Assembly: GCF_900108115.1 (NCBI RefSeq)
Contig: NZ_FTPU01000014.1
Location: forward strand, 1 to 64,000
Source: Epilithonimonas bovis DSM 19482
GTDB taxonomy: Bacteria; Bacteroidota; Bacteroidia; Flavobacteriales; Weeksellaceae
Direction: 5' to 3'
DNA: 64,000 nt
In this document: positions 45,289 to 53,594 of the stretch, piece by piece
Layout of the letters: each line of letters starts with the position of its first letter
How positions within the stretch are numbered: position 1 is the first letter of the stretch
The notes under the pieces: generated by a model
The model's input: only the letters and a program-made list of their open reading frames with translations
What the model was told of the DNA's origin: nothing
The model's database searches: none
Made by a program: the position numbers and the translations under genes

Positions 45289-45744
45289 ATGAAAGGAATA
45301 TTAAAGATCTACCATCCGGAGGAGACACTCAAGTATTTTATTAAAAGTACGTACTGCAAATCGGTTTACAGCAATACCAAAAACTTTTTAGAAGTGGAAA
45401 TCTTAACCGATGATTCTTTGGATCATGTAGAAGACGACTCGCTGCAATACAATTTCCCGCAGCTTTCCCTTAATGTTTTTGACTATCCCATTGCCGTGTC
45501 GGATCTTGCCGGGCACAGTTTCCACATAGAAGATACGGATGACGACACCTACACAGAGGCAGACCTTTTTGATGATGAAGAAGCTTTTCTTTTTGACAAT
45601 GATCTGACTTTCGAGAATAAGGATGGCGAGCTTCAATTGTGCTGGACAGGCAGTATTACCGATTTTTATACCGGTGCAGACGAGCCCATCCCGTTCAAAC
45701 TGAAGTGCAATTTCCGTCAGGATGACATCGAGGTAGACGAGTAA
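45289..45744 (+). CDS. Acidic hypothetical protein
   Basis: 151 residues, no signal peptide. It is very acidic, with runs such as IEDTDDDTYTEADLFDDEEAF in the middle, and starts MKGILKIYHPEETLKYF. No family is recognised. It precedes the TonB-like/ExbB cassette on the same strand by about 73 nt, which allows but does not prove co-transcription. Confidence 0.7.
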   Translation: MKGILKIYHPEETLKYFIKSTYCKSVYSNTKNFLEVEILTDDSLDHVEDDSLQYNFPQLSLNVFDYPIAVSDLAGHSFHIEDTDDDTYTEADLFDDEEAFLFDNDLTFENKDGELQLCWTGSITDFYTGADEPIPFKLKCNFRQDDIEVDE

Positions 45745-45817: not shown

Positions 45818-46747
45818 ATGTATCAGGATCTGGACGATATTGTTTTTGAAGACCGCCACAAGGCTTATGGTGCTTATGAATTCCGTAAGCATTATGACTT
45901 TACCCTTACCAAAGCCGTGGTTGTAGGGATTTTTATCTTCTGCGTGCTCTTTTTTATTCCGGCATCATTAACCAAAACACCCAGGAAAACAGCAATTAAC
46001 AGCGAAAAAATAATTCCTGTTGACCTTACCGAGATGCGCATCAATTATGGCGACAACCGCAATGGGAATGGCGCAGAAGAACCCAAAGCCGAAGAAGGAA
46101 GCCCGGCGCCCGTGATTGAGAAAAAACAGGAAAAAGAAACAGTTTCAGAGATTGCGAAATCATCTAAAGACAACACAGACAAAGACATACCCGATAATGT
46201 TGTCCCGACACCTACCAGAACTAAAAACCCGCCCGTAGCCAGCAAAAAATCAAACGACAAAGCCAATTCGCCCGTGGTGGCTAATTCTACCAAAACCGTA
46301 AAAGGCAATACCAACGCAAAAGGCGATATCAAGAAAGAAAATGCCACCGGTGACGGCCGTGGAAATGCAGCCATTGGCAATCTGCTAAAAGGCCGTGGTA
46401 CAAAAGCAGGATCTCAGGGTAATGGTTCCGGGCCGGGCAATTATGGCGATCCTCTGGGTGGCGACGGCGACGGAAACAGCCTTATTGGCATCGACAGAAA
46501 ACTAGTCGGTTTTATCCCGGGGACTATGGGGAGGGGCGGTGCGCAACCTAGCCAAAGCTGCTCAGCCAGTGGCAGCATTACTATTTCTTACACAGTTGAT
46601 AAGTCGGGAAAGGTTGTATCTGCCAGGCGCCAAAGCGGCAGCTCGGATCCCTGCCTCATCAGTACGGCTACCAGCTGGGTAAAGCAATATGTAAAAGCAG
46701 AACCTGCCAATGTATCTTCAAAGGGAACGTACAAAATCGTGTTCTAA
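45818..46747 (+). CDS. TonB-like protein A with a two-cysteine C-terminal domain
   Basis: 309 residues from the ATG at 45818; a TTG one codon earlier is possible. The cytoplasmic start FEDRHKAYGAYEFRKHYD resembles that of Bacteroidota TonB proteins; one membrane helix (about 29-49) follows. Then comes a long Pro/Lys/Asn/Gly-rich spacer. The last 78 residues begin FIPGTMG and hold YTVDKSGKV and WVKQYVKA, with Cys at domain positions 17 and 48. This domain aligns without gaps to the end of protein B at 47491-48147, by hand count identical at about half the positions. Role inferred: periplasm-spanning energy transducer. Confidence 0.82.
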   Translation: MYQDLDDIVFEDRHKAYGAYEFRKHYDFTLTKAVVVGIFIFCVLFFIPASLTKTPRKTAINSEKIIPVDLTEMRINYGDNRNGNGAEEPKAEEGSPAPVIEKKQEKETVSEIAKSSKDNTDKDIPDNVVPTPTRTKNPPVASKKSNDKANSPVVANSTKTVKGNTNAKGDIKKENATGDGRGNAAIGNLLKGRGTKAGSQGNGSGPGNYGDPLGGDGDGNSLIGIDRKLVGFIPGTMGRGGAQPSQSCSASGSITISYTVDKSGKVVSARRQSGSSDPCLISTATSWVKQYVKAEPANVSSKGTYKIVF

Positions 46748-46813
46748 TCGTCTTAAGAGGATTTTTTCTTAAAATATTGGACAATCCATTCGGATAAGTC
46801 CTTAGTTAATTCT

Positions 46814-46821
46814 TAAATTTG
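46814..46821 (+). promoter_or_regulatory. -7 box before the ExbB/TolQ-type gene
   Basis: TAAATTTG matches TAnnTTTG, 25 nt before the ATG at 46847. The gap of 99 nt after protein A therefore could hold a separate promoter. No -33 TTTG is at the right distance. Confidence 0.4.
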
Positions 46822-46846
46822 AAGGGTCAAAAACAAAATCAAAACT

Positions 46847-47488
46847 ATGGCAAAACAGAGTATTTCTATCTGGGAATTTTTATTTAGCGGAGGCCTGTTG
46901 AGCGTTTCCCTGATTATGATTCTGATTTTTTTTGGGATTGCAGCCATTGTTTTTTTTGCACAGAAACTATATGCGCTTAACCGGGAAAATCAGGTAGATC
47001 CTTATCTACTAAAGAACGTGAATGATCTGCTGAATGATGGCCGAATCCAATCCGCGGTTGATTTTTGCAGAAGAGACAACTCACCGGAAGCGCGCAGCGT
47101 AGAAAAAGGCCTCTCAAGACTGGGGCGCCCAGTTAACGAAATTGCAAATGCGATGGAAACTCAGGCACAGATAGAGCTTAACAGTGCTGAGAAAAACGTT
47201 GGTTTTCTGGCAACACTTTCCGGCGCTGCACCTATGTTAGGGCTACTGGGTGGTATTTTGATCTTGGTTTCTACTTTTGGAAGTTTATCAAAAACAGAAA
47301 CTTTGGTGGCTCAAAATATTTTGGCAGCAGATTTTTATAAAGCTTTGGCACCAGCCGCTGTGGGGCTTATCGTTGGATTTATTTCTTACATTTTCCACAA
47401 TATTCTGGTGAGCAAAATAGATTATATGCTGATGAAAATCCAGTACCACACCAACGAGTTTCTGGACATCATCAACAAACCTTCTTAA
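46847..47488 (+). CDS. MotA/TolQ/ExbB-family proton channel protein
   Basis: 213 residues. An N-terminal membrane helix (about 17-39) is followed by a cytoplasmic region and the two-helix channel part: LATLSGAAPMLGLLGGILILVSTFG (about 122-146) and YKALAPAAVGLIVGFISYIF (about 165-185). These are the classical ExbB/TolQ motifs. ExbB uses the proton-motive force to drive TonB, normally with ExbD. Here the next gene, 2 nt downstream, encodes a TonB-like protein instead of ExbD. Confidence 0.9.
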   Translation: MAKQSISIWEFLFSGGLLSVSLIMILIFFGIAAIVFFAQKLYALNRENQVDPYLLKNVNDLLNDGRIQSAVDFCRRDNSPEARSVEKGLSRLGRPVNEIANAMETQAQIELNSAEKNVGFLATLSGAAPMLGLLGGILILVSTFGSLSKTETLVAQNILAADFYKALAPAAVGLIVGFISYIFHNILVSKIDYMLMKIQYHTNEFLDIINKPS

Positions 47489-47490
47489 CA

Positions 47491-48147
47491 ATGGATTTTC
47501 GTCGAAAAACAAAAAGGCTTTCCGGTTTGCCAATTGCATTTTATGTAGTTGTGCTGTTGTTTTTTGTGCTGTTGTTTTCCTTTAATTCTTCTTATTACAA
47601 AAACTCTGAGATCCCGCAACCTGTTGTCGTAGAAACGCCACAAGCGATTGAGGAACCAATACAAGACACATTAACAAAACCGGAAATCTACGTGCCGGAA
47701 GCCGAAGTCCTGCCTCCTGTAGCAACAATTGATGATGATAAAAATCAAGAGCTAAAAGAAAAAGACAAGGACAAACAGGCCGCTGAAACATCTAAAAAAG
47801 AAAAGGTGGCTGATTCTAAAACCAAACAAAAGGAAGAAGAAAAAAAACAGACAGATCCTAAATCCGACAAAGTCACCAAAATAGGAAAAGACAGACCGCT
47901 AACCGCCTTTATCCCGGGAACGATGGGGAAAGCAGGCAAATTACCAAAACATAACTGTAAAACCAAAGGCCAGCTTGTGATGTTTTTTACAGTAGACAAG
48001 TCAGGCAATGTCACCAGCACCGGAAGAAGCAGCGGCATCAAGGACGGCTGTAATATTACTGCAGCTGTCATCTGGATGAAGCAATATGTAAAAGCTAAAA
48101 AATCCCAAAGTAACTCTCAAGGGACTTATACAATTAATTTTAATTAA
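47491..48147 (+). CDS. TonB-like protein B with the two-cysteine C-terminal domain
   Basis: 218 residues. A basic start (MDFRRKTKRLSG), one membrane helix (about 13-31) with no Asp inside, so it lacks the ExbD proton-site residue. A spacer of about 100 residues follows, Pro- and Lys/Glu-rich (EKDKDKQAAETSKKEK). The C-terminal 78 residues start FIPGTMG and hold FTVDKSGNV and WMKQYVKA, with Cys at domain positions 17 and 48, paralogous to protein A. It occupies the ExbD place beside the channel gene (2-nt gap). Confidence 0.82.
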   Translation: MDFRRKTKRLSGLPIAFYVVVLLFFVLLFSFNSSYYKNSEIPQPVVVETPQAIEEPIQDTLTKPEIYVPEAEVLPPVATIDDDKNQELKEKDKDKQAAETSKKEKVADSKTKQKEEEKKQTDPKSDKVTKIGKDRPLTAFIPGTMGKAGKLPKHNCKTKGQLVMFFTVDKSGNVTSTGRSSGIKDGCNITAAVIWMKQYVKAKKSQSNSQGTYTINFN

Positions 48148-48229: not shown

Positions 48230-50551
48230 ATGAAAAATAGCATTTTATTTTTTCTTATCCTTATCTCAACGGCTTTCTCTGCTCAGCAAAATCTTAAGAT
48301 TAATGGAAAAATCATTAATTCTGATAAAGAGAAAAATGTATCTCCTATTATCATTTACCTTTTGGATCAAGATAATCACTTAATAAAATCGACCTTTGCT
48401 CAGGATTCGAAGTTTGAATTCGACCAGTTGAAGTCGGGGAATTATCATCTTCAACTCTCGTCAGATGAAACAATTCAGAATGAGAAGCCATTTTATCTGG
48501 AAAAAAATCTCGAGCTTTCAATTGCATTTGAACTGAAAAGCCAAAAAATTGATGAGGTAACAATCACGGCTAAGAAAAAGACTTTCAAGGTAGAAAATGG
48601 GAATATTACGCTGGATGTTGCTAATTCAGCTCTGAATAAATTACCGACATCTTCAGAATTATTATCAAAATTACCTTTTGTAATGATGGATGCAAACGGC
48701 GAAGGTTTATCGTTTGTTGGAAAAGGAACACCTTTGCTTTATGTTGACAATCAGCGAGTGGATTTTGCGACATTATCTGCAATTTCAGTGGACGACATCA
48801 AGTCTGTAGAAGTTATTAGAAATCCGTCTGTTAAATATGAATCGGAAGGAAAAGCAGTTATCAAAGTTAATCTTAAAAAGAGTAGAAAAGATGGTTCGCA
48901 ATTGAGTCTTTCGGAAACGGCAACTTTCCAAAAACGATTCAGTAATTATCTTTCAGCTAATTTTCAGCAAAAGAAAAATAAAACCGAGTGGAAACTGAAT
49001 TCTTCCTACAACCAAGTCAATCATTGGGAAAGCAATGGTTTTGATTATCAAGTTCCAAGTAAAAATATTAGTTCCGATTATGTTATTAAATCCATCACAA
49101 AACGCCCGCAAACTATTTTTGGAGCGAGTTTGTATCAGGAACTGAATGACGACGGCGATTACATAACGCTAAGTTTTAATATGAATTTCAGACCTGATAA
49201 AGGCGATAACAATACCAATACTTTCTATTCAGAAAATGGTAATTCTACTTTTGTTAAAACCCTGAATCAGCAAGACAGAAACCGAGCGACCATCAATTCT
49301 ATCTTTAATTATAAAAAGAAAATAACAGATTGGGATGCTGAGATTTTGACCGGATTTCAGTTCAAAAGAGAGAGCGATAATGTGGATTATAGTTTTTATA
49401 ATGATACCAATAATTCCGGTTACGAGTTCAATCAGTTTCGTCATCAGTTATATTCTGGAAATGCTTATTCCGGAAGAATTGATATAGAGAAAAAATTGAG
49501 TGACAATTACAATCTTGAACTAGGCGGAAGCTTCACAAAAGCAGAAACCAACACCAATAACAAAACGGTTTTTCAGAATAATCAAAATCCTGAATTTTAT
49601 CAATACCAATTCAAAGAATCGAATCTTGCAGGTTATACCAATCTCGCCATTACTGCTGACAAATGGAATATCAATGCAGGTTTGAGAGCTGAAACAACCA
49701 ATGCGCAAGGTTTTGATGTGATTGAGAATGCAACTAAAATCAAGAGAGATTATCTCGACTGGTTCCCCAATGCGGAAATCAGTTTCAAGCAAAATGACAA
49801 TTATGATTATACTTTGAACTTCAGAAAAAGCATTTCCCGTCCGAGTTATGGAAATCTGGCTTCCGGAGGTTTATATGGAAGTCCATACGTTGAATATCAA
49901 GGAAATCCAGACTTAGTTCCAACTTATACCAACACGATTACTTTTACCACAAATCTGAAAAAAATCTCTGTCAACGCTTCTGCTTACAACAGCAAAAATC
50001 CTTTCGGTTACACCTTGGTTTATGATGAGGTAAGAAATATTTCCAAATTTCAACCGGTTAATTTCGATAAAGAAATGGGTATTTCTTTAGGCATTGATTC
50101 TCTTTTTCAAGGAAAAAAGTGGACGTCTCAGAACAGTCTTTCCGTTAATTATGATAAAATCGAAGATTCTCTAGCCGTTCTGAAAAATTCGACGCCTTAT
50201 GTTTATTTTTCAACTAATAATACTGTGAATGTTTGGAAGTATTTGTCAATTCTGCTGGACGGTTCTTATATCACAAAACGTGTGGAAGGTTTGTATGAAA
50301 ACAATGCAATGTGTTTGGTCAATCTTGGGATGACGTCTTCTATTTCCGATTTTGATTTTACAGTTCGATACAATGATGTTTTCAATCAGATGAATTATAT
50401 GCAGAAAATGTCTTATAGCGGAATCAATTCAACTGGCACTTTTTTTGGAAATACGCCAACGATATCTTTTTCAGCAAAGTATAATTTTGGTAAACTGAAA
50501 AAATCCAGTTACAAGGAAAATGCTGTCAACGTAACTTCGAACAGATTATAA
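48230..50551 (+). CDS. Outer-membrane beta-barrel protein (TonB-receptor-like, OMP_b-brl_3 type)
   Basis: 773 residues with a signal peptide (about 1-18, ending FSAQQ). A carboxypeptidase-regulatory-like domain (about 20-110), then a plug-like region (LPTSSELLSKLPFVMMD, VEVIRNPSVKYESEGKAVI) and a large beta-barrel end. This matches the 'outer membrane beta-barrel family' near TonB-dependent receptors. Substrate unknown. It follows protein B by 82 nt on the same strand, so it may be the receptor energised by the cassette. A small DUF2007 gene follows by 10 nt. Confidence 0.88.
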   Translation: MKNSILFFLILISTAFSAQQNLKINGKIINSDKEKNVSPIIIYLLDQDNHLIKSTFAQDSKFEFDQLKSGNYHLQLSSDETIQNEKPFYLEKNLELSIAFELKSQKIDEVTITAKKKTFKVENGNITLDVANSALNKLPTSSELLSKLPFVMMDANGEGLSFVGKGTPLLYVDNQRVDFATLSAISVDDIKSVEVIRNPSVKYESEGKAVIKVNLKKSRKDGSQLSLSETATFQKRFSNYLSANFQQKKNKTEWKLNSSYNQVNHWESNGFDYQVPSKNISSDYVIKSITKRPQTIFGASLYQELNDDGDYITLSFNMNFRPDKGDNNTNTFYSENGNSTFVKTLNQQDRNRATINSIFNYKKKITDWDAEILTGFQFKRESDNVDYSFYNDTNNSGYEFNQFRHQLYSGNAYSGRIDIEKKLSDNYNLELGGSFTKAETNTNNKTVFQNNQNPEFYQYQFKESNLAGYTNLAITADKWNINAGLRAETTNAQGFDVIENATKIKRDYLDWFPNAEISFKQNDNYDYTLNFRKSISRPSYGNLASGGLYGSPYVEYQGNPDLVPTYTNTITFTTNLKKISVNASAYNSKNPFGYTLVYDEVRNISKFQPVNFDKEMGISLGIDSLFQGKKWTSQNSLSVNYDKIEDSLAVLKNSTPYVYFSTNNTVNVWKYLSILLDGSYITKRVEGLYENNAMCLVNLGMTSSISDFDFTVRYNDVFNQMNYMQKMSYSGINSTGTFFGNTPTISFSAKYNFGKLKKSSYKENAVNVTSNRL

Positions 50552-50836: not shown

Positions 50837-53182
50837 CTAAAACTTAAAATCTACACCCACATAGAAATTTTGCTTCATAATTGGTGCATAAACCATTCCG
50901 CCGTCAAAGTAATTTCCAAAGGGATTTCCAGCATCCAGAATCGCAACTTTTTGCTGATAGCCCGTTAAGTTTTCTCCACCTAAATAAATTCTGATTTTCT
51001 CAGAAAAGTTTCTGGAAATCTGAGCATTCAAAGTGGCATAACTTGGTGAGTAATCTGCTAACTGAAATTCTGTAGGATTTGATTTTGTATTCGGAAGTCT
51101 CTGTTTTCCAACTAAATTTAAAGTCGTGTCAAAACTCCAAAATCTACCTTTCTCAGTTTTATTGGTTGAATAAGCCAGGTTAGCAAATCCACGATGTTTC
51201 GCCATAAATGGCACTTTTTTTAATCCGCTCAAATAATCCAAAGCCACATCATAATATTTGTAAGCCACTCTGAAATCTAAGTTTTTAATTGGCTGAAAAT
51301 CCCACTGCGTCTGGAAACTGTTTGCAAATGACTTTCCTTCAAGGTTATAAAACAAAATTTTCTGTGCAGATTCATCCAAATCTGTCACCACCTGATTCTG
51401 GAAATCTGTTCTGAAAAAATCAGCTAAAATGGTTGATTTTCTTCCAAACAACTTAAATTCCTGTTGCAAACTTACTCCATAATTCCAAGCGATTTCAGGC
51501 TTCAAACCGTAGATTTCGCCACCATTATTGATGATTTGAATTTGACGATTTGATGCAAAATAAGACTGACTTTCCGCAAAGATATTCGCAGTTCGGAAAC
51601 CTCTTCCAGCCGAAATTCTGAAAATCGTTTTCGGAGTCAAATCATATTTGAAATTCATTCTAGGTGTAAATTGCGTTCCTGCAAGATTGTGAAAATCAAC
51701 ACGAGCGCCTGTCACCAAAGTGAATTTTTCGCCTGTCAAAGTATATTCTGCAAACAATCCTGGAACAGTTTCGGTTCTTTTGTAATTGTCCAAAAGATAA
51801 TCTTCATCGTATTTGTCATAAAGGAAACTAGCTCCAACTTTATATTTGTTGTTTGTATTTCCGATGATACTTTCGAAAATCAAATTAGAATAATAAGAAG
51901 TCTCTTTCCCAAAATAATTTCTCAATCCGAAAAAGCTATCTTGCTGATGATAAGTCAATTGGTTCATCCATCCCAAGCTTTGATAAGGTTTTCCTTTGAA
52001 AACATAACCTGTTTTATTCCATAATTGAAATCTCGAAATATCAATTCCAACACCATAAAGCGATTGGTCTTCCTGCGGAATCCTTTTATTAAATCCGATT
52101 TGTCCTGCCGTTCTTTCGTCTTTCAGATAATTAATTCCGAAATGCGAAGCAAATCCAGAGTTCTCCAAATCATTGTAATTCAAAAGATAAGCAACATTTA
52201 ATTGGCTTCCTTTTGGCCTGTCAAGAAAACCGTCATCGTTCATATCTGTATCGCCAAAAGTGCCGTTACCGTGAAGCAAAACACTTTGAGTCCATTTGTC
52301 AGAAATTGGAGAAGTGCTCGTCACATTGGCTTCCACACGACCATTGTTATCAGAGAACAAATTGATTTCTGTTTCCGATTTTTTATCATCGTCGTGGGTT
52401 TTCAAAAGTTCTGTATTGATTTGTCCTGTGATACTTTCGTAACCGTTGACAACCGTACTTCCGCCTTTCGTCAGCTGGATTCCGCCAATCCATTTTCCTG
52501 GAATGAAATTGAGCCCATAAGGCGAAGCCAATCCACGGATTTCAGGTAATTGTTCCTTGGTCAAAAGTGTATATTTCTGGTCAAGTCCGAGCATTTTCAA
52601 TTGCTTAGTTCCCGTAACCGCATTACTGAACGAAACATCCACAGTCGCATTGGTTTCAAAACTTTCGGAAAGATTACAACAAGCCGCTTTCAATAATTCT
52701 TTGGAACTGATATTGAAAATCAATCCCGCTTCTTTTTTACTGATAGCCGTTGCTTCTTTTTCTCTCGTCAGTTTTACACCTTCAATCTGATTCGTTTTTT
52801 TATCAGAATCTGAATGATGTTCAAGTGTGTCATTCGGTTTTTCAAAATCAGAACCTCTTGTATATAGACAACACGCAGGCAGATTTTTGTAAGCATCTTC
52901 CGGCGCTTTGAATTTCTCGTTATCGTGACCAACTTCAGCGATTTGTTTCAGGATATCATCACATTTAACTTTTGATTCGTCAATTGTCATTGTCAAAGTC
53001 TGATTATTGGCTGTCCAGTTTGCAGTTTGTGCTCCTGCTTTCAAGGCTGCTTTTTCTATTCGTGCTTTACATTGTCCGCAATTTCCCTTTACCAAAAACT
53101 GTTCTGTAACGGTTTGTGCAAAGGAAAATATGGAACAAACGAGCAGCATAAAAAACATAAGTTTCCTACTTAAAATGTTCAT
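50837..53182 (-). CDS. TonB-dependent receptor with an N-terminal heavy-metal-associated domain
   Basis: 781 residues from the ATG at 53182; a longer frame to 53299 runs over sequence that does not look coding. Signal peptide to about residue 22. An HMA domain (about 25-95) has GNCGQC (Cys35, Cys38), followed by NLPACCLY (Cys104, Cys105). A further AACCNLSESFETN precedes the plug (GLASPYGLNFIPG), then a long beta-barrel ending in KF. The HMA domain replaces the usual carboxypeptidase-like start. It suggests metal, most likely copper, binding at the outer membrane. It starts 19 nt after the HMA gene. Confidence 0.9.
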   Translation of the reverse strand: MNILSRKLMFFMLLVCSIFSFAQTVTEQFLVKGNCGQCKARIEKAALKAGAQTANWTANNQTLTMTIDESKVKCDDILKQIAEVGHDNEKFKAPEDAYKNLPACCLYTRGSDFEKPNDTLEHHSDSDKKTNQIEGVKLTREKEATAISKKEAGLIFNISSKELLKAACCNLSESFETNATVDVSFSNAVTGTKQLKMLGLDQKYTLLTKEQLPEIRGLASPYGLNFIPGKWIGGIQLTKGGSTVVNGYESITGQINTELLKTHDDDKKSETEINLFSDNNGRVEANVTSTSPISDKWTQSVLLHGNGTFGDTDMNDDGFLDRPKGSQLNVAYLLNYNDLENSGFASHFGINYLKDERTAGQIGFNKRIPQEDQSLYGVGIDISRFQLWNKTGYVFKGKPYQSLGWMNQLTYHQQDSFFGLRNYFGKETSYYSNLIFESIIGNTNNKYKVGASFLYDKYDEDYLLDNYKRTETVPGLFAEYTLTGEKFTLVTGARVDFHNLAGTQFTPRMNFKYDLTPKTIFRISAGRGFRTANIFAESQSYFASNRQIQIINNGGEIYGLKPEIAWNYGVSLQQEFKLFGRKSTILADFFRTDFQNQVVTDLDESAQKILFYNLEGKSFANSFQTQWDFQPIKNLDFRVAYKYYDVALDYLSGLKKVPFMAKHRGFANLAYSTNKTEKGRFWSFDTTLNLVGKQRLPNTKSNPTEFQLADYSPSYATLNAQISRNFSEKIRIYLGGENLTGYQQKVAILDAGNPFGNYFDGGMVYAPIMKQNFYVGVDFKF

Positions 53183-53201
53183 CGTCAAAAATTTAAGTTG
53201 A

Positions 53202-53594
53202 TTACTTAAGCTCGCAGACTTGTTTAGGATCGCAACTTTTCGCCATCTTTTTGCTGTTGTCAGGACGGTCGTACTGGCAGCAAGCGTCCAGATCGTCATA
53301 GACTTTGTCGGAAGCGCGGAACATTTCGTTGTCGTGACCTGCTTCCGCTACACTTTTCAGAATCGATTTTTGATCAGTTTTGGAAGCGTCGTAACTTACG
53401 GTCAAGACTTTTTTGCTCATATTCCAGTCGGCTGATTTTACATTTTTATCAGCTTTAACAGCCGTTTCGATGCGTTCTTTGCACATTCCGCAGTTGCCTT
53501 CTACTTTGGCTTTGAAGGTTTTTGTTTGTGCAGAAAAATTTGAAAATAGAAATATTGAAAGGAATAAAATTCCTGATTTTATGATTGTATTCAT
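53202..53594 (-). CDS. Exported heavy-metal-associated (HMA) protein
   Basis: 130 residues from the ATG at 53594; the frame open to 53663 lacks a leader. Signal peptide to about residue 22. The HMA site is GNCGMC (Cys35, Cys38). The extension AGHDNEMFRASDKVYDDLDACCQYDR holds Cys105-Cys106, with Cys121 and Cys127 near the end. The HMA plus CC extension is clearly paralogous to the N-terminus of the TonB receptor that follows 19 nt later. Probable periplasmic copper-binding or delivery protein; metal identity is inferred. Confidence 0.9.
   Translation of the reverse strand: MNTIIKSGILFLSIFLFSNFSAQTKTFKAKVEGNCGMCKERIETAVKADKNVKSADWNMSKKVLTVSYDASKTDQKSILKSVAEAGHDNEMFRASDKVYDDLDACCQYDRPDNSKKMAKSCDPKQVCELK

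Follow-up and report, generated by a model that had tools for sequence, protein, structure and literature searches.

What does an ExbB protein do in an operon that no longer has an ExbD? The question is raised by a locus of Epilithonimonas bovis DSM 19482, at positions 45818 to 48147 of a 64,000-nucleotide stretch (the window, positions 1 to 64,000 of contig C90, NZ_FTPU01000014.1) of a 3.35-Mb genome assembled in 96 contigs. In the prevailing view, the Ton, Tol, Mot, and Gld motors all work by means of a dimer that bears an acidic residue and sits inside a pentamer; in Ton, Tol, and Mot this residue is an aspartate facing threonine residues. Here, a single ExbB/TolQ-type gene lies between two genes for TonB-like proteins, A and B, and, as a preliminary description of the locus had said, no ExbD accompanies it. 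By comparison with relatives, and on grounds of parsimony, the A-ExbB-B unit goes back to an ordinary ExbB-ExbD-TonB operon that has since been remodelled: ExbD was lost, and the C-terminal domain of TonB was doubled.

All three reading frames lie on the forward strand, with the positions and contents given in that description. Protein A (45818..46747, ATG at 45818), a TonB-type transducer, begins MYQDLDDIVFEDRHKAYGAY and has an anchor with a single membrane helix, joined by a Gly/Asn-rich spacer to a C-terminal domain of 80 residues (46505..46744, forward strand, FIPGTMG to the end) carrying two cysteines, Cys249 and Cys280 in the 310-residue reading of A from 45815. The ExbB/TolQ-type protein follows after 99 bases (46847..47488; Pfam MotA_ExbB, 4.4e-19; E. 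coli ExbB in the PDB, 2.2e-6), and B after another 2 (47491..48147), with a short cationic N terminus, a membrane helix, a Lys/Glu-rich spacer, and a TonB-like C-terminal domain (47908..48144, forward strand) with Cys156 and Cys187. The gapless similarity of the two domains from FIPGTMG onward, which had already been pointed out, amounts to 50% identity, with the cysteines in register. In 21 aligned sequences of each protein (the window and 20 loci), reading by eye revealed no Asp or Glu in the membrane helix of either A or B, which bears out the statement that the helix of B lacks the ExbD-type aspartate.

The arrangement is constant within the genus, which is probably Epilithonimonas. Coordinates place A, ExbB, and B in this order in 23/23 genomes, and the 20 loci fetched besides the window (two of the 23 genomes were left unfetched) all read U, A, ExbB, B, FolC, U being an upstream gene described below; in one of them (L034), A and ExbB are 619 bases apart, and a 168-residue open reading frame (ORF) lies between them. 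ExbD had no match at the locus in any of the 23 genomes. An ExbD hidden between the genes of the window was rejected as a candidate, as the spaces of 99 and 2 bases leave no room for one and gave no match. The ExbD typical of the operon was found neither in the genus nor in a related genus (g27) nor in a reduced genome (G049), and since in two genomes that do have it this protein was the best-scoring ExbD, with 93 and 88 bits, its absence is unlikely to be a miss. The ratio of nonsynonymous to synonymous substitutions (dN/dS; Nei-Gojobori, unsaturated pairs among the 20 loci, the pairs therefore differing by gene) had a median of 0.065 for A (35 pairs), 0.055 for ExbB (56 pairs), and 0.126 for B (107 pairs), while seven loci of an ExbD-bearing genus gave about 0 for ExbB, 0.034 for ExbD, and 0.06 for TonB (11 to 16 pairs each). 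By this sequence measure the unit is under purifying selection, and the low dN/dS together with the order conserved in 23/23 genomes makes the arrangement more than chance.

The origin of the unit emerged from a search with a profile of the two-cysteine domain in a sample of 119 family genomes. The domain was present in 95 of them (14 belonging to the genus, with two copies each) and absent from 24. Among the 81 non-genus family genomes with the domain, all of whose loci were fetched, 78 had ExbB-ExbD-TonB, 74 as judged by ORFs and BLAST and 4 more by tblastn, their ExbD having been masked by the choice of ORFs; one of the 78 (L157) has a split ExbB and genes lying far apart. The ancestral unit has an ExbB of about 226, an ExbD of about 132, and a TonB of about 290 residues, and B stands where relatives have exbD-tonB. 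Its position in place of ExbD in the operon, noted in the preliminary description, is borne out. The two genomes of g27 have A-ExbB-B followed by FolC, so that this order was found in 22/22 fetched loci, 20 from the genus and 2 from g27. In G049 (L117:6063-7334), an ExbB with an assembly gap and a TonB stand without ExbD, and both cysteines are lost. An ExbD that always goes with this ExbB, named earlier as an observation that would speak against the lone channel, is therefore the usual state in relatives (78/81 keep it) and is not seen here (0/23 at the locus). At the level of the order, 41 of 146 genomes had a domain match, and 14 genomes outside the family gave weak matches; of three such loci, two had ExbB-ExbD-TonB and a gene that looks FolC-like from its first residues, while the third had no such operon. 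A tree of 57 FolC sequences placed the genus, g27, and the ExbD-keeping genus g19 in one clade (90/91), leaving its internal order unresolved, and it is from the shared arrangement, not from this tree, that we infer a single origin of A-ExbB-B.

We take Riemerella to belong to the same family as the analyzed genome. Three TonBs of Riemerella anatipestifer have been studied (PMC4446302, PMC5109031), and its exbB1-exbD1-tonB1, as a complete complex, is reported to have energized the hemin receptor and iron uptake of this species in E. coli (PMC4446302). With an ExbB of 24 kDa, an ExbD of 14.7 kDa, a TonB of 30.6 kDa, and a hypothetical gene of the same direction before them, these genes fit the ancestral unit, an equivalence drawn from size and order alone (PMC4446302). 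Unlike the unit studied here, they include an ExbD of their own and a single TonB, and the next gene is described as one of the hi0933 family and not as FolC (PMC4446302).

Along with ExbD, the residues that would face it have changed. In E. coli, Asp25 of ExbD is faced by a polar ring made up of Thr148 and Thr181 of ExbB (PMC7014051, PMC12215075). Both sites were Thr in 77/77 ExbBs encoded with an ExbD, not counting the split ExbB of L157. In the 23 ExbBs of A-ExbB-B units (the window, 20 genus loci, and two of g27), the Thr148 site was Gly in 20 and Ser in 3, and the Thr181 site was Ser in 13, Thr in 6, Ala in 3 (the window and both g27 genomes), and Gly in 1. The pair is thus not kept in the window (Gly136 and Ala170), and in most of these ExbBs the second site is merely loosened. 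In the third helix, the window has FYKALAP at residues 163 to 169, and the motif FYKAL[AS]P recurs, with F163, A166, L167, and P169 in 23/23 and Lys165 in 21/23 sequences; likewise, the site of E. coli Glu176 is Lys in 21/23. Comparison therefore shows, at the level of sequence, pore threonines lost or loosened in an ExbB that is still under purifying selection and has acquired a conserved motif of its own. The first helix of the local ExbB showed no convergence on canonical ExbB in a comparison with one canonical sequence.

These losses could be read as decay, the operon being a relic deprived of its energy source. ExbD and conserved pore residues are indeed gone, B is the fastest-evolving member (dN/dS, 0.126), and ExbB evolves faster than in one ExbD-bearing genus. 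However, the unit is retained in 23/23 genomes with dN/dS far below 1, a new motif has become conserved, and g27 shares the arrangement, and we consider a relic very improbable.

A second change concerns the anchor of A. The first 60 residues of A align over 44 ungapped residues with the TonB of a canonical ExbB-ExbD-ExbD-TonB operon of the same genome (contig 70) at 19.6 standard deviations (SD), none of 500 shuffles scoring as high, against 1.0 SD with one old operon TonB (L102). The TonB of contig 57 scores like that of contig 70 (109 against 104). The body of A, in turn, aligns with the old operon TonBs (for instance, 50% over 248 and 49% over 283 residues). With an anchor like the genome's other TonB type and a body like the old operon TonB, A is a chimera, and comparison shows its membrane and cytoplasmic end (45818..45970, forward strand, comprising the cytoplasmic DLDDIVFEDRHKAYGAY stretch and the membrane helix) to be that of the other type. 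The chimeric N terminus suggests that A may work without the local ExbB altogether.

The domain of B is that of the old TonB, and its first 45 residues gave no match above controls to ExbD, old TonB, or A. A motif in its spacer, IY[IV]P[ED], is found in 21/22 B proteins versus 7/80 operon-type TonBs. Two other identities were considered for B: an ExbD-TonB fusion is unsupported by profiles, and an NCBIfam match to TolA (1.4e-4; 21.3 bits versus a cutoff of 59.45) was taken to reflect Lys/Glu composition.

Does the genome hold an ExbD elsewhere? A check for exbD, proposed in the preliminary description, gave three matches, every one of them on other contigs. Two belong to the canonical operon of contig 70, upstream of which lies a gene that we take to be LeuRS-like. 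Both ExbDs of this operon occur in 22/23 genus genomes, the exception being a genome 73% complete, and the ExbB of the operon has Thr at both pore sites. The operon resembles the A-ExbB-B unit in the family of its ExbB and in a TonB anchor that matches that of A, and differs in having two ExbDs and a TonB whose C-terminal domain passes the Pfam TonB_C cutoff, which that of A does not. The tonB2 operon of Riemerella, beside LeuRS, has the same order (PMC4446302). The third ExbD (L008:3048-3555, contig 49) is a lone paralogue of the canonical type, which lies in two frames in this genome, has an internal TAG in another (G018), and is missing from 5/23 genus genomes. As a displaced partner of the local ExbB it was rejected, being 44 to 55% identical to canonical ExbD2 and about 30% to an operon ExbD in the three copies compared, of 18 genomes having one.

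The local ExbB might nevertheless still be a proton motor, borrowing the canonical ExbD (or that of the lone paralogue) and driving A and B as its two transducers. The presence of canonical ExbDs in 22/23 genomes, the conservation of ExbB (dN/dS, 0.055), and the T or S kept at the Thr181 site in 19/21 sequences would agree with this. A borrowed ExbD would, however, meet a pore changed at the Thr148 site in 23/23 A-ExbB-B ExbBs, with Ala at the Thr181 site in the window and both g27 genomes and Lys at the Glu176 site in 21/23; the local ExbB of g27 and canonical ExbB share a mere 22% over 197 residues, and the lone paralogue is missing from 5/23 genomes and lies in two frames here. We regard this alternative as rather unlikely.

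The explanation that we tentatively adopt is a re-wiring of A, which would now depend on the canonical ExbB-ExbD-ExbD motor encoded at another place in the genome, with ExbB and B left behind as a partner not driven by protons. In E. coli, the membrane helix of TonB docks on ExbB (PMC12215075, PMC12905483, PMC12204202). The replaced N terminus of A would be the part of TonB that docks on the motor, and if so, A would now be pulled by the ExbB-ExbD-ExbD of contig 70, and through its old two-cysteine domain force would still reach the same outer-membrane partners as before. The local ExbB would have ceased to be a proton motor and become a passive membrane scaffold that holds B by its membrane helix, and B, with a tip of the same kind, would be a second arm kept at the membrane and perhaps holding partners between the strokes of A. 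We infer the drive of A by the canonical motor and the nonmotor nature of the local pair; their passive role is a conjecture.

Several points weigh against this explanation. Proton-driven MotA is not known to carry a Thr at the position of Thr148. Of the genus sequences, 19/21 still have Thr or Ser at the Thr181 site, and the ExbB of G049 keeps Thr at the Thr148 site despite the loss of ExbD. The local ExbB is less constrained than its counterpart in the ExbD-bearing genus (0.055 versus about 0). The changes probably took place on one branch, so that the link between the loss of ExbD and that of the threonines counts as one event and not as 23. The docking of TonB on ExbB is known from E. coli and is carried over to Bacteroidota by analogy, the contact of A with the canonical motor included, and the ExbD of contig 70 could serve the local ExbB in trans. 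Finally, according to one review, ExbB seems to have no direct part in proton translocation (PMC7014051), in which case changed threonines need not mean a dead motor.

The unit is a natural case, conserved and under selection, in which the aspartate subunit is gone and the threonine facing it has changed as well; on it one could cleanly test what ExbB does besides proton flow and whether a swap of N termini can re-wire TonB arms between motors. It is also a reason not to label ExbB homologues as proton channels across the board.

Along the lines of the device that the preliminary description had envisaged, B could occupy the seat of ExbD within the pentamer of ExbB and A a place at its rim, the axle of this energy-coupling complex being a TonB arm for which no aspartate is needed. 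B does follow ExbB as closely as ExbD does (a median of 3 bases in 22 loci and of 7 in 74 loci, respectively), its start, MEFRRRTKK, resembles that of ExbD, MELKRRNR, and the third helix of ExbB has been remodelled around a conserved motif. A precedent has been proposed in TolQ-vWA pairs, TolQ-type motors without TolR/ExbD in which the transducer lies in the pore and the pore aspartate is kept (PMC12204202). The N terminus of B, however, scored poorly against an ExbD profile (3.7 bits for the best B versus 8.1 for the best unlabelled ORF), and hhalign gave it a probability of 25% with ExbD and 31% with old TonB. Moreover, B has no aspartate, whereas vWA pore helices keep theirs (PMC12204202). 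We think it unlikely that B sits in the pore in this way. The related idea of a force-transducing complex free of both ExbD and aspartate, with the helix of B and a ring of lysines in a pore whose wall is remodelled, passive or nonproton coupling of the two membranes, and A acting either at the rim or through the canonical motor, seems equally doubtful to us.

TolQ-vWA motors are like the unit in having a TolQ/ExbB-type gene without an ExbD neighbor and an adjoining transducer gene (PMC12204202). They are unlike it in their vWA domain and in the pore Asp and Thr ring that they are described as retaining, whereas B has a TonB-like domain and no Asp, and the Thr sites of the unit have changed; Pfam gave no match to a vWA domain in A or B. 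Another ExbB without a Pfam ExbD match on its contig occurs in the same genome, on contig 88, beside a small protein that we take to be DUF2149-like. It differs from the ExbB of the unit in keeping GLIGT and STT, the motifs of both pore Thr, and in having a small partner whose helix has an Asp at its beginning (read by eye). This third ExbB (L007:3175-4025) lies between a presumably receptor-like gene and the Asp-bearing membrane protein, with a large, presumably CobN-like protein further on. No report of an ExbB-TonB unit lacking both ExbD and the aspartate was found in a literature search that covered titles, abstract openings, and selected passages, subscription papers being mostly outside it.

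The two-cysteine domain itself is less unusual than had been supposed. In the Pfam TonB_C search, that of A scored 17.4 bits, below the cutoff of 24.6, and that of B had no match, and a PDB sequence search with the domain profile returned nothing meaningful (best E, 0.2). An AlphaFold2 model of the domain of A, built from 8 rows, has the order strand-strand-helix-strand and a mean predicted local distance difference test (pLDDT) of 75.1, residues 11 to 20, which include most of the FIPGTMG stretch, being below 50. With Foldseek against the PDB, ranks 1 to 17 were TonB or TonB homologues (best E, 6.2e-3; template modeling [TM] scores of 0.46 to 0.61; none with E of ≤0.001), with TolA entries from rank 18, below TonB, the folds of TonB and TolA being related. 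The domain of A is thus predicted, with modest scores, to have the TonB fold. In the model, the first cysteine precedes strand 1 and the second lies at the start of the helix after strand 2, positions compatible with a disulfide, and most likely the two form one that staples the domain. Both cysteines were present in 21/21 A and 21/21 B sequences and in 123/124 domains of fetched family loci, the exception having lost both together. With a model that best matches TonB C-terminal domains, a cysteine pair found family-wide, and a parent operon that fits exbB1-exbD1-tonB1 of Riemerella, the earlier view of a domain undescribed in kind finds no support. The same FIPGTMG two-cysteine domain was also seen in a 339-residue protein with a signal-like N terminus (L118:5057-6076, G048); the 12 kb read around it contained no ExbB.

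Upstream of A, the gene U (45289..45744, forward strand) encodes a conserved acidic protein of 151 residues. It precedes A in 20/20 genus loci, and in 62 loci from other genera the gene that comes immediately after it is ExbB. Pfam and NCBIfam gave no match above cutoff for U, and its predicted structure had a mean pLDDT of 47.9.

Downstream, the barrel protein at 48230, formerly counted as a member of the unit, does not belong to it and owes its place to a local rearrangement, through which its gene now adjoins B; FolC follows B in 20/20 genus loci. In E. bovis, FolC is inverted (69821-71050, minus strand), and about 21 kb of other DNA, the barrel gene included, separates B from it. The rearranged region covers 48147-71150 of the contig (48147-64000 in the window), with one breakpoint directly behind B, and the post-FolC sequence of 4/6 relatives compared begins at about 71.15 kb in this genome. 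Within the region, on the minus strand (50837-53299), lies a gene for a receptor-like barrel protein whose N-terminal stretch, read by eye, resembles a heavy-metal-binding domain with Cys motifs (GNCGQC).

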